Source: Lepisosteus oculatus
Lineage: Eukaryota > Chordata > Actinopteri > Semionotiformes > Lepisosteidae
NCBI RefSeq assembly: GCF_040954835.1
Contig: NC_090709.1
Span: 39,056,776 to 39,120,775, forward strand
Reading direction: 5' to 3'
Length of the DNA stretch: 64,000 bases
Position 1 is the stretch's first letter, and every line of letters starts with the position of its first letter. The notes beneath the pieces are model-generated. The model was given only the letters and a program-made list of their open reading frames with translations. It made no database searches and was not told the origin of the DNA. Below are positions 25,944 through 64,000 of this stretch, piece by piece. The position numbers and the translations under genes were made by a program.

Positions 25944-28900
25944 CTATGTCAGCTGGTGGGGCGCCTCCAGCATCTCCATCAGGAAGGTGTCGATGGGGGT
26001 GTCGCCGATGAGCTTGAAGAAGAAGAGGTGCTCCAGGCACTTCAGGCCGATCGAGCGCAGGGCCGGCAGCCGGAGGAGGAGCTTGGCGAACCTGGGGGGC
26101 GGGACCGGGGGTTAGACCACGCCCCTCCGCTGCCAGGGGGGCGGCGGCTCGGCGGGAGGGGGCGCGGCCCGTTACCTGCCCTGCTGGTCGGGGTATCTCT
26201 GCTTGCAGTAGGCCTCCAGCGAGGCGTACACCTTCTCCCTGAGCAGCTCCACCTCGCTGGGGTTCGACAGCCCCTTGGCGTCTGCACAGGGCCAGAGGGG
26301 ACAGCACAGGGTCAGGGGGGACAGCGAGTCGAGGCACAGGGTCAGGGGGGACAGCGAGTCGAGGCACAGGGTCAGGGGGGGACGGCACAGGGCCAGAGGG
26401 GACAGCACAGGGTCAGGGGGGACAGCACAGGGTCAGGGGGGACAGCGAGTCGAGGCACAGGGTCAGGGGGGGACGGCACGTCGAGGCACAGGGTCAGGGG
26501 GGACGGCACAGGGTCAGGGGGGACGGCACAGGGTCAGGGGGGACGGCACGTCGAGGCACAGGGTCAGGGGGGACAGCACGTCGAGGCACAGAGCCAGAGA
26601 TTCGACAGCACAGGGTCAAAAAAGGACAGGGAGGGGACGGCACAGGGCCAGAGCGCCAACAGCACAGGGCCAGAGAGGACAGGGAGTCGAGGCACAGGGT
26701 CAGAGATGACGGCACAGGGTCAGGGGGGACAGCGAGTCGAGGCACAGGGTCAGAGATTCGACAGCACAGAGCCAAAGGGGGCAGAGAGTCAACAGCACAG
26801 GGTCAGAGAGGACAGGGAGGGGACGGCACAGAGCCAGAGAGCCAACAGCACAGGGCCAGAGAGGACAGGGAGGGGACGGCACAGAGCCAGCACAGGGTCA
26901 GAGAGGACAGGGAGGGGACGGCACAGAGCCAGAGAGCCAACAGCACAGGGCCAGAGGGACAGGGAGTCGAGGGACAGAGCCAGAGAGCCAACAGCACAGG
27001 GTCAGAGAGGACAGGGAGTCGAGGCACAGAGCCAGAGAGTCAACAGCACAGGGTCAAAAAAGGACAGGGAGGGGACGGCACAGGGCCAGAGGGACAGGGA
27101 GTCGAGGCACAGGGCCGGAGAAGACAGGGCTCAGAGCACAGATGTGTCCAGTACCTGGGTTGAACAGGATGATGGCCCGCAGGCAGCCCAGCTCGGTCTT
27201 GTCCATCTGCATGTCCCTCATCTTGCTGACCAGCTCCGTCAGCACCCTGAGAGCAGGGGAGAGAGGAGAGCAGGGGTCAGAGGTCAGACACCGCAGGACA
27301 CCAGCACCAGACAGAGAGGAGCCACATGCCAGCACCCCGCAACCCTGTGTAATTACACCTTTATTACACGAGTTACTACCACTGGTGCACCGCGAGGTTG
27401 GAGCTTAATTAACCCCTTATTACTGTGCAACAGCCACACGTGTGATCTTGTTATTACCTGTCAAATATGGCGCCCACCTCCACACTGTGAGCACTGTCCC
27501 TGTGTGTTCAATCACAAAGTGTTATTACACAGTTATTACACTGTTAATACCTCCACACTGAGCACTGTCCCTGTGTGTTCAATCACAGTTATTGTGTTAT
27601 TACACAGTTAATACCTCCACATTGTAAGCACTGTCCCTGTCTGGGAGTCTGACTGACGGCACTGTCACACCTGGAGCGGATCAGACTGCTGCGCACTGGG
27701 AGTCTGACTGACAGCACTGACACACCTGGAGCGGATCAGACTGCTGCGCACTGGGAGTCTGACTGACAGCACTGTCACACCTGGAGCGGATCAGACTGCT
27801 GCGCACTGGGAGTCTGACTGACAGCACTGTCACACCTGGAGCGGATCAGACTGCTGCGCACTGGGAGTCTGACTGACAGCACTGTCACACCTGGAGCAGA
27901 TCAGACTGCTGCGCACTGGGAGTCTGACTGACAGCACTGTACCACCTGGAGCGGATCAGACTGCTGCGCACTGGGAGTCTGACTGACAGCACTGTCACAC
28001 CTGGAGCGGATCAGACTGCTGCGCACTGGGAGTCTGACTGACAGCACTGTCACACCTGGAGCGGATCAGACTGCTGCGCACTGGGAGTCTGACTGACAGC
28101 ACTGTCACACCTGGAGCGGATCAGACTGCTGCGCACTGGGAGTCTGACTGACAGCACTGTCACACCTGGAGCGGATCAGACTGCTGCGCACTGGGAGTCT
28201 GACTGACAGCACTGTCACACCTGGAGCGGATCAGACTGCTGCGCACTGGGAGTCTGACAGCACTGTCACACCTGGAGCGGATCAGACTGCTGCACACTGG
28301 GAGTCTGACAGCACTGTCACACCTGGAGCGGATCAGACTGCTGCGCACTGGGAGTCTGACTGACAGCACTGTCACACCTGGAGCGGATCAGACTGCTGCA
28401 CACTGGGAGTCTGACAGCACTGTCACACCTGGAGCGGATCAGATTGCTGCGCACTGGGAGTCTGACTGACAGCACTGTCACACCTGGAGCGGATCAGACT
28501 GCTGCGCACTGGGAGTCTGACTGACAGCACTGTCACACCTGGAGTGGATCAGACTGCTGCACACTGGGAGTCTGACTGACAGCACTGTCACACCTGGAGC
28601 GGATCAGACTGCTGCGCACTGGGAGTCTGACTGACAGCACTGTCACACCTGGAGCGGATCAGACTGCTGCGCACTGGGAGTCTGACTGACAGCACTGTCA
28701 CACCTGGAGCGGATCAGACTGCTGCACACTGGGAGTCTGACTGACAGCACTGTCACACCTGGAGCGGATCAGACTGCTGCGCACTGGGAGTCTGACTGAC
28801 AGCACTGTCACACCTGGAGCGGATCAGACTGCTGCGCACTGGGAGTCTGACTGACAGCACTGTCACACCTGGAGCGGATCAGACTGCTGCGCACTGGGAG

Positions 28901-61440: not shown

Positions 61441-64000
61441 TCTGTCTCTCCCAGGATGGAGCTGTGCTCAGTGCAGTGTGTACTATACTAACCCCCCTGT
61501 CTCTCCCAGGATGGAGCTGTGCTCAGTGCAGTGTGTACTATACTAACCCCTCTGTCTCTCCCAGGATGGAGCTGTGCTCAGTGCAGTGTGTACTATACTA
61601 ACCCCTCTGTCTCTCCCAGGATGGAGCTGTGCTCAGTGCAGTGTGTGTACTATACTAACCCCCCTGTCTCTCCCAGGATGGAGCTGTGCTCAGTGCAGTG
61701 TGTGTACTATACTGACCCCCCTGTCTCTCCCAGGATGGAGCTGTGCTCAGTGCAGTGTGTGTACTATACTGACCCCTCTGTCTCTCCCAGGATGGAGCTG
61801 TGCTCAGTGCAGTGTGTACTATACTAACCCCCCTGTCTCTCCCAGGATGGAGCTGTGCTCAGTGCAGTGTGTACTATACTGACCCCTCTGTCTCTCCCAG
61901 GATGGAGCTGTGCTCAGAGCAGTGTGTGTACTATACTAACCCCCCTGTCTCTCCCAGGATGGAGCTGTGCTCAGTGCAGTGTGTACTATACTAACCCCCC
62001 TGTCTCTCCCAGGATGGAGCTGTGCTCAGTGCAGTGTGTGTACTATACTGACCCCCCTGTCTCTCCCAGGATGGAGCTGTGCTCAGTGCAGTGTGTACTA
62101 TACTAACCCCTCTGTCTCTCCCAGGATGGAGCTGTGCTCAGTGCAGTGTGTGTACTATACTAACCCCCCTGTCTCTCCCAGGATGGAGCTGTGCTCAGAG
62201 CAGTGTGTGTACTATACTAACCCCCCTGTCTCTCCCAGGATGGAGCTGTGCTCAGTGCAGTGTGTACTATACTAACCCCCCTGTCTCTCCCAGGATGGAG
62301 CTGTGCTCAGTGCAGTGTGTACTATACTGACCCCTCTGTCTCTCCCAGGATGGAGCTGTGCTCAGTGCAGTGTGTACTATACTAACCCCCCTGTCTCTCC
62401 CAGGATGGAGCTGTGCTCAGTGCAGTGTGTACTATACTAACCCCCCTGTCTCTCCCAGGATGGAGCTGTGCTCAGTGCAGTGTGTGTACTATACTGACCC
62501 CTCTGTCTCTCCCAGGATGGAGCTGTGCTCATTGCAGTGTGTGTACTATACTGACCCCCCTGTCTCTCCCAGGATGGAGCTGTGCTCAGTGCAGTGTGTA
62601 CTATACTAACCCCTCTGTCTCTCCCAGGATGGAGCTGTGCTCAGTGCAGTGTGTACTATACTAACCCCTCTGTCTCTCCCAGGATGGAGCTGTGCTCAGT
62701 GCAGTGTGTACTATACTGACCCCCCTGTCTCTCCCAGGATGGAGCTGTGCTCAGTGCAGTGTGTGTACTATACTGACCCCCCTGTCTCTCCCAGGATGGA
62801 GCTGTGCTCAGTGCAGTGTGTACTATACTAACCCCTCTGTCTCTCCCAGGATGGAGCTGTGCTCAGTGCAGTGTGTACTATACTAACCCCTCTGTCTCTC
62901 CCAGGATGGAGCTGTGCTCAGTGCAGTGTGTACTATTCTGACCCCCCTGTCTCTCCCAGGATGGAGCTGTGCTCAGTGCAGTGTGTACTATACTAACCCC
63001 TCTGTCTCTCCCAGGATGGAGCTGTGCTCAGTGCAGTGTGTGTACTATACTAACCCCCCTGTCTCTCCCAGGATGGAGCTGTGCTCAGTGCAGTGTGTAC
63101 TATACTAACCCCTCTGTCTCTCCCAGGATGGAGCTGTGCTCAGTGCAGTGTGTGTACTATACTAACCCCTCTGTCTCTCTCCCAGGATGGAGCTGTGCTC
63201 AGTGCAGTGTGTGTACTATACTGACCCCTCTGTCTCTCCCAGGATGGAGCTGTGCTCAGTGCAGTGTGTACTATACTAACCCCTCTGTCTCTCTCCCAGG
63301 ATGGAGCTGTGCTCAGTGCAGTGTGTGTACTATACTGACCCCTCTGTCTCTCCCAGGATGGAGCTGTGCTCAGTGCAGTGTGTACTATACTAACCCCTCT
63401 GTCTCTCTCCCAGGATGGAGCTGTGCTCAGTGCAGTGTGTGTACTATACTAACCCCTCTGTCTCTCCCAGGATGGAGCTGTGCTCAGTGCAGTGTGTACT
63501 ATACTGACCCCTCTGTCTCTCCCAGGATGGAGCTGTGCTCAGTGCAGTGTGTACTATACTAACCCCTCTGTCTCTCTCCCAGGATGGAGCTGTGCTCAGT
63601 GCAGTGTGTGTACTATACTAACCCCTCTGTCTCTCCCAGGATGGAGCTGTGCTCAGTGCAGTGTGTACTATACTAACCCCCCTGTCTCTCCCAGGATGGA
63701 GCTGTGCTCAGTGCAGTGTGTACTATACTAACCCCCCTGTCTCTCCCAGGATGGAGCTGTGCTCAGTGCAGTGTGTACTATACTAACCCCTCTGTCTCTC
63801 CCAGGATGGAGCTGTGCTCAGTGCAGTGTGTACTATACTAACCCCCCTGTCTCTCCCAGGATGGAGCTGTGCTCAGTGCAGTGTGTACTATACTGACCCC
63901 TCTGTCTCTCCCAGGATGGAGCTGTGCTCAGTGCAGTGTGTGTACTATACTAACCCCTCTGTCTCTCCCAGGATGGAGCTGTGCTCAGTGCAGTGTGTAC
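61440..64000 (+). repeat. 55-57-bp acceptor-carrying minisatellite, runs off the window
   Basis: About 45 near-identical copies of CCCCTCTGTCTCTCCCAG, GATGGAGCTGTGCTCAGTGC, AGTGTGTACTATACTAA. On the plus strand each contains a strong acceptor (CTGTCTCTCCCAG) followed by G ATG GAG CTG TGC. Units vary by a GT (55/57 bp), CT insertions, and C/T or A/G at fixed sites (CCCCCC/CCCCTC; ACTAAC/ACTGAC). By analogy with the minus-strand arrays it may copy the 5' edge of the next exon, which would hold the start codon; that exon is not in the window. Confidence 0.9.

Follow-up and report, generated by a model that had tools for sequence, protein, structure and literature searches.

Genes of the window and repeat load of their introns

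The window, meaning here the whole 64,000-nucleotide stretch of Lepisosteus oculatus DNA that was analysed (positions 39056776-39120775 of contig C14 in a 1.2-Gb genome; C and L followed by a number label contigs and fetched regions, respectively), carries the genes RXRB, SLC39A7 and RNF5, all on its minus strand. In this GC-rich, gene-dense compartment, introns have expanded into local minisatellites, some of which include an exon edge together with its splice site. Other introns are occupied by F62, a dispersed 62-bp repeat family that lies mostly in register with 3' splice sites, in the sense of the gene, and takes up nearly the whole intron where both splice sites could be placed.

The 23 exons of the three genes were placed by peptide reading and string search, which gave 20 introns and 40 exon edges, and the joined coding frames of RXRB and RNF5 are open. 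A 19-nt microexon of RNF5 completes the RING frame (Table 1). Tandem repeats were called with TRF, and repeat cover counts periods of at least 12. On this measure, tandem repeats make up 0.865 of intron DNA and 0.09 of coding exons. An earlier, sequence-only reading of this DNA had taken most introns of the three genes for arrays running from splice site to splice site; this agrees with the overall share and with the 12 of 20 introns that are at least 79% repeat-covered, but not with RXRB intron 9, SLC39A7 intron 3 and RNF5 intron 3, in which TRF called no tandem repeat. The other 17 introns all hold some repeat, in SLC39A7 intron 1 merely 2.3 copies. Ten random 4-kb regions elsewhere in the genome have a repeat fraction of 0.005 and a GC content of 0.33-0.48, compared with 0.50 and 0.54 in the window; because the random regions hold only 0.5% repeat, the repeat density of the window is atypical of the genome. 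When the arrays are collapsed, intron lengths are 65-865 nt, which is compatible with short founder introns and does not separate the models discussed below. A search against Rfam gave no match within the window.

Table 1 Repeat arrays and related features of the window (positions of the window, first letter = 1).
Feature	Position	Strand	Remarks
141-bp array, x23.8	34517..37767	-	Contains acceptor and first 59 nt of RXRB exon 4 (34396-34575)
166-bp array, x2.9	33979..34449	-	Contains last 54 nt of RXRB exon 4 and donor
46-bp array, x18.5	47341..48190	-	Contains acceptor and first 29 nt of SLC39A7 exon 6 (47173-47369)
Array of ~79-bp units	46136..47210	-	Contains last 38 nt of SLC39A7 exon 6 and donor
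55-bp array	61434..64000	+	Unit holds TACTAAC, a pyrimidine tract and AG, plus the beginning of an AGPAT1-like start-codon exon
F62 array, x14.2	39021..39900	-	Fills RXRB intron 2 (38996-39923)
F62 array	55089..55584	-	Fills RNF5 intron 4 (55066-55595); acceptor is CTCTCTCTCTCAG of the last partial unit
F62 array	56088..56260	-	In RNF5 intron 2 (56034-56319); next comes an incomplete unit that has a branch-point-like motif, a pyrimidine tract and AG
F62 array	22883..23177	-	Outside a recognised intron, ~2.8 kb past the RXRB stop codon; TRF
61-bp array	29507..30482	-	Fills RXRB intron 6; weakly related to F62 (wraparound score of 180 across 988 bp); its acceptor is GCTGACCCCTGTCTCTCTCTCTCTCAG
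F121 array	40163..41124	-	121-bp dispersed unit in RXRB intron 1; ends 9 nt from acceptor; control family
F121 array	56464-56737		In RNF5 intron 1; 125 nt from acceptor
50-bp array, x16.6	49368..50199	-	In SLC39A7 intron 2; stops 10 nt from donor and 5 nt from acceptor; TRF
44-bp-type array	54427..54941	-	In RNF5 intron 5; starts 12 nt from donor
55-bp unit	27641..29295	-	In RXRB intron 7; recurs intergenically at 43406-44544; TRF
RNF5 microexon	56320-56338	-	19 nt, CTGGCCATGTCTACACCAA

Local arrays that contain an exon edge

The sequence-only reading had placed a splice site or exon edge inside the repeat units at RXRB exon 4, at both ends of SLC39A7 exon 6 and in the 61.4-64 kb array, and all of these were confirmed, RXRB exon 4 at both of its ends (Table 1). 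The last array extends ~2 kb beyond the window into region L009 and ends there at an exon that starts GATGGAGCTGTGCTC and reads as the AGPAT1-like start-codon exon, and the array is therefore part of a fourth gene. The name AGPAT1, like PATL1, CLCA, SEZ6L2, TGFB1I1, COX6A, ADPRH, RPS19 and others, comes from peptide reading without a Pfam or PDB match. Two further proposals did not survive: the array of RNF5 intron 5, starting inside the donor, includes no exon, and RXRB exon 7 shows a single degenerate copy of its end and donor, near 27478, in place of an array. A diverged extra copy of the start of RXRB exon 5 with its acceptor was also observed at ~31900-31950 on the minus strand, in intron 4 upstream of the true exon.

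A strictly local origin holds for both exon-edge units that were tested. Genome matches to a 37-mer from the donor-side unit of SLC39A7 exon 6 fall inside its own array in 10 of 10 cases, and those to a 37-mer from the AGPAT1-like unit at its own locus in 14 of 14. The 55-bp (27641) and 121-bp units of window introns do recur elsewhere. Outside the window, a 93-bp array in L022 holds 30 copies of a TUFM-like exon end and its donor.

Repeats of this kind form a described class, contrary to the sequence-only reading, which knew of no name for them. Under the terms sequence stuttering and exon stuttering, Hron et al. 2026 (PMC12954441) report repetitive introns on chicken dot chromosomes, through which exon parts and adjacent splice sites have been copied. 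According to the excerpts of that paper used here, the phenomenon is strictly local and affects 236 introns in 115 genes (3.4% of dot-chromosome introns; median exon part 36 bp), more than 90% of the copied exon sources are no further than 1 base from the exon border, and the authors, who commit to no mechanism, consider the phenomenon absent from other vertebrates except gerbils, with the gerbil data not shown. Set against these excerpts, the window shares the GC-rich compartment, introns full of imperfect tandem repeats whose size runs from tens to hundreds of bp, and the copying of a lateral exon part with its splice site (RXRB exon 4, SLC39A7 exon 6 and the AGPAT1-like exon). It differs in its host, a gar and not a bird, and in that the compartment lies inside large contigs: RXRB is 39 Mb into a 60-Mb contig, and TUFM-, ATP2A- and PPP1CA-like genes are 1-2 Mb into a 66.8-Mb contig. 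A search for avian keratin (PF02422) gave no match, a weak result because the control genomes gave none either; COX1 had no match, and the GC heterogeneity is like that of gars in the excerpts of PMC6909575. F62 differs from the strictly local chicken arrays by being dispersed. In the features compared, the local arrays of the window fit exon stuttering.

Exon-edge arrays raise the question of whether splice junctions are hotspots that seed minisatellites through slippage or repair, in which case units would hold splice sites since they began there; the sequence-only reading had proposed this as a general pattern. Several units do hold splice sites, five edges in or beside the window lie inside arrays, and the 30 copies of the TUFM-like exon end and the chicken figure of more than 90% (PMC12954441, excerpts) point the same way, the latter being expected of any border-spanning unit. 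The exon-edge arrays are real, but the data do not show that seeding favours junctions, because repeat cover in the window introns rises away from them, from 0.15 on the donor side and 0.28 on the acceptor side at 1-10 nt to 0.80 and 0.75 at 51-100 nt and 0.90 in mid-intron, and because repeats cross (by at least 10 nt) only 4 of 40 exon edges, namely the acceptor and donor edges of RXRB exon 4 and SLC39A7 exon 6, against 27.2 expected from a circular shift that ignores purifying selection. Selection against disturbed exons is part of this depletion. At other loci, 0 of 17 edges not chosen for an array are crossed; these remain from 22 edges after removal of one that was not found, two picked for a known array, and two TUFM-like edges scored as crossed only because TRF joined arrays across exons. 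General seeding was dropped on these grounds, and as an explanation of the arrays it is improbable; it would also leave one unit on many contigs unexplained.

F62, a dispersed repeat mostly registered to 3' splice sites

Within the F62 unit, TATTAAC resembles a branch point and is accompanied by a pyrimidine tract and AG; where an array ends at an acceptor, TATTAAC-CCCTCTCTCTCTC-AG abuts the exon. Exact 35-mers of two variants match the genome 4505 and 9259 times (13,764 in total), and the reversed-pattern controls of both gave no match in the genome. The family is present on at least 10 contigs, with C1, C2, C3 and C4 among the 35-mer matches listed and the others found through a junction pattern that matches on C3, C4, C7, C14, C21, C26, C30 and C279. 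A strictly local origin thus does not apply to F62. In RNF5 introns 2 and 4, where the sequence-only reading had seen units with a splice site or exon edge, the acceptor is indeed contained, but the unit is dispersed F62 with no local seed. Rough extrapolation calibrated on 27 array segments gives ~18,000 units, 1.1 Mb and ~900 arrays, and the match groups on C4 give ~1,700 arrays. In the open-licence literature of PubMed Central, we found no description of a dispersed intron-end repeat family like F62.

Arrays contain 3-51 anchored copies with a unit identity of 0.93-0.99. Between arrays, identity is 0.967 at the same locus, 0.957 on the same chromosome and 0.949 between chromosomes (arrays with fewer than 3 copies, RNF5 intron 2 and RXRB intron 6, were left out, and L009, L010 and the window were counted as one locus), and arrays on C14 favour a TTCATG variant. 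Because identity is graded from locus to chromosome to genome and variant sites are shared, exchange among F62 arrays looks ongoing or recent, and stronger between neighbours.

The position of F62 relative to exons was determined in a primary sample that was not chosen by junction, comprising 17 ten-kb regions (L012-L028), 15 on C4 (1.2-2.06 Mb, among at least 33 match groups) and two on C3. Wraparound alignment with drop-off gave 26 arrays in them, two segments in L028 being counted as one and one array being cut by the region end. With exons identified by reading, 19 of the 25 evaluable arrays end at most 40 nt from an exon acceptor in the sense of the gene (one each in L012, L013, L014, L015, L019, L020, L021 and L024, the first in L018 and in L026, the first plus-strand and the minus-strand array in L016, two in L022 and five in L027). 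Several introns each hold F62 in the TUFM-like and the SEZ6L2-like gene. Six of ten joined or single peptides scored above the Pfam cut-off (EF-Tu D2/D3, Cation_ATPase, E1_dh, Sulfotransfer_1, CUB/Sushi and MHC_I, the MHC_I peptide being one exon), and the PPP1CA-like and ELOB-like exon joints across F62 introns are continuous when compared with PDB sequences.

Further regions comprised three beside the window and 32 short and nine two-kb stretches on C3, C4, C7, C14, C21, C26, C30 and C279. The junction pattern (..TATTAACCCCTCTCTCTCTCAG followed by A, C or G) occurs at 43 places, 19 on the plus and 24 on the minus strand. Among the 32 fetched loci besides L018, it stands directly before an open exon-like frame at 17 and reaches one after 1-3 more units at three; the others are array-internal variants (nine), non-coding (two) or unconfirmed (one). 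Ten of the 17 direct exons were submitted to Pfam and eight found support, seven above the curated cut-off and IF4E below it. When the nine array-internal places were traced downstream as a second sample, eight resolved and six of these end at an acceptor followed by an exon-like frame, by reading; in one of the six, L095, a host-like pyrimidine tract lies 23 nt on. Arrays are hard to assemble, and collapsed or misjoined repeats could in principle create such arrangements, but at many loci, spread over several contigs, in-frame coding exons stand on both sides of the arrays or after them, and an assembly artefact is extremely unlikely.

Anatomy of F62 introns

Both splice sites were placed in 21 F62 introns, which have a median length of 1061 nt, with medians of 22 nt of host DNA on the donor side and 12 nt remaining on the 3' side. 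The 3' remainder is at most 40 nt in 20 of the 21 introns and the donor side at most 25 nt in 13, and in 15 the non-array DNA amounts to less than 60 nt in total. The shortest vertebrate introns known are of about that length or longer. Because the residue is near or below this size, our inference is that the host introns lost their body or had it replaced, beyond mere interruption.

A branch-point-like motif is found within the last 36 nt of 19 of the 21 F62 introns but of only 1 of 25 other introns, the motif set having been written after the F62 acceptors had been viewed. Two of the 25 control acceptors, those of RXRB intron 6 (score 20) and of an ELOB intron in L014 (score 19), align to F62 as well as F62 introns do and may belong to decayed relatives. 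Some acceptors are hybrid, with F62 continuing as far as the pyrimidine tract, where another pyrimidine run takes over (for example, intron d of the SEZ6L2-like gene), which points to a junction inside the pyrimidine tract. A donor register of F62 was rejected: AGGTRAGTGTCTGTATTAACC gave one match, and the 5' side of F62 is therefore not uniform. The start phase of the array varies between introns, and the 5' splice site of F62 introns looks mostly host-derived.

These features bear on whether F62 could be a mobile intron resembling introners, its arrays moving as introns through RNA-mediated reverse splicing or a transposon and creating or replacing whole introns. F62 is dispersed, lies in the gene sense, carries a 3' splice site and occupies its introns almost completely, as this explanation would have it. 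However, its 5' ends start in different phases and in many cases retain host DNA on the donor side, some arrays lie outside recognised introns, and the hosts are what we take to be ancient intron positions, which together make such an origin quite unlikely. Compared with introners as described in the excerpts of PMC9860276, F62 is likewise dispersed and near-identical, makes up introns and carries a splice site, 19 of 21 introns having the motif at the 3' splice site. In contrast to a single unit bounded by splice sites, F62 forms tandem arrays with a variable 5' end, in introns that look old.

Origin and maintenance of F62 arrays

We put a probability of about 0.6 on a reading with two overlapping parts, in which local minisatellites of exon edges and introns coexist with a dispersed, acceptor-carrying F62 that was copied into existing introns. 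The local arrays would reflect ordinary turnover through slippage, repair or conversion and would be tolerated because one intact junction stays beside the intact exon. F62 would spread at the DNA level: when a fork stalls or a break occurs at a host acceptor, in its pyrimidine tract, repair would copy from an F62 array via CTCTCTCTCTC-AG homology, and the host intron body would then be lost. The arrays would survive because each unit can serve at once as a 3' splice site, and would later be homogenised, more among neighbours than between chromosomes. Since the last copy alone precedes a true exon with a donor, exon definition, a general feature of splicing, could select that copy. The arrays outside recognised introns (in L028 and at 22.9 kb of the window) favour copying at the DNA level, and local slippage on its own does not yield a family that is both dispersed and aligned with 3' splice sites. 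In its strongest form, which we hold only tentatively, F62 could be an 'acceptor minisatellite', a selfish tandem repeat that moves from gene to gene, replaces intron bodies and supplies branch point, pyrimidine tract and AG, such that several hundred unrelated ancient introns of one vertebrate would share one homogenised cassette, with concerted evolution of splice sites.

A number of observations weigh against copying of F62 into introns through its acceptor. Six of the 25 evaluable arrays of the primary sample lack the acceptor pattern: the second array in L018 and that in L025 have a candidate acceptor that is plausible only, the array in L023 is sense-intronic but more than 2 kb from an exon, and three lie elsewhere (L017; the second in L026, before the next gene; and L028, antisense beside an ADPRH-like exon). 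In the second sample, 2 of the 8 resolved arrays lack it as well. A host-like acceptor is kept in L015, L019, the COX6A intron (minus strand of L016) and L095. The primary sample comes mostly from one region (C4, 1.2-2.06 Mb), and flanks were translated in the sense of the array, with both strands read at six loci, so that orientation was sought unevenly. Within the window, repeats other than F62 end at most 10 nt from the acceptor or cross it in seven introns, including F121 in RXRB intron 1, and the 121-bp family F121 is a weak control because its 20 fetched places are variants inside F121 copies. The proposed step at the pyrimidine tract is derived from the positions of the junctions. The age of the host introns and their replacement by F62 are putative, and so is the use of the F62-proximal AG as splice site, which the exon frames suggest.

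The strongest rival is random insertion followed by purging, in which F62 lands or expands anywhere in either orientation and is kept in short introns where its acceptor works, so that selection creates the register. An intron reduced to an array must use the acceptor of the unit, and arrays that are non-intronic or out of register do exist (L017, L023, the second in L026, and L028). This explanation predicts, however, that antisense or out-of-register intronic arrays are common, while those met were one sense array far from its exon, in L023, and, next to a gene, one antisense array, in L028, antisense exons having been sought at only some loci. We regard it as rather unlikely, and favour the copying of F62 into existing introns.

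Chance placement of F62 was dropped on two comparisons, one with F121 (0/20, a weak control) and one of motifs (1/25, with a motif set tailored to F62). For F121, a pattern of the same design occurs at 36 places, and 0 of the 20 fetched stand directly before an exon, as against 17 of 32 loci for F62.

Relation to other systems and significance

In Drosophila, dispersed euchromatic satellites form arrays spread among euchromatic sites, with conversion among neighbours. F62 arrays resemble them in being dispersed and homogenised between neighbours; we know of no register with splice sites in the Drosophila satellites. Another parallel comes from human introns that lie inside tandem repeats and have dual-specific splice sites: the excerpts of PMC10809524 count 792 in repeats, 77 of them with a length that is a multiple of the unit. 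As in these introns, the splice sites that delimit an F62 intron lie within a tandem repeat. Unlike them, built from local repeats of a gene (PMC10809524, excerpts), F62 is common to introns of unrelated genes.

If the favoured reading is true, one repeat that brings its own acceptor takes over introns of unrelated genes, making the intron a niche for a parasite without transposase, and splice sites evolve in concert across genes. It makes the choice of the spliceosome among dozens of near-identical acceptors testable and offers a vertebrate system for the cause of intronic 'stuttering' in GC-rich compartments.

Other repeats at these loci

By reading, the F121 unit resembles the C-terminus encoded by a LINE reverse transcriptase open reading frame. 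Its pattern has many matches at 45-59 Mb of C14, and 8 of the 20 fetched places (L071-L090) are nearly identical ahead of a repeated downstream sequence. A 66-bp array in RXRB intron 3 (37766-38800) is apparently, by reading, part of a dispersed LINE-like element that is also present in L018 and L023. In L026, an F62 array (3897-7287) separates the end of a SULT1-like gene from the start of the gene that follows, presumably where the last SULT1 exon is to be expected.

Downstream of RXRB, the window contains a large, near-perfect inverted repeat (5600-22500) with arms of up to 914 nt at 99% identity and its centre at ~14.1 kb. A 93-bp repeat family lies at 2636-6652 and 21708-22466, on opposite strands of this palindrome, and its unit combines a pyrimidine tract and AG with a GT spaced as for a small exon.

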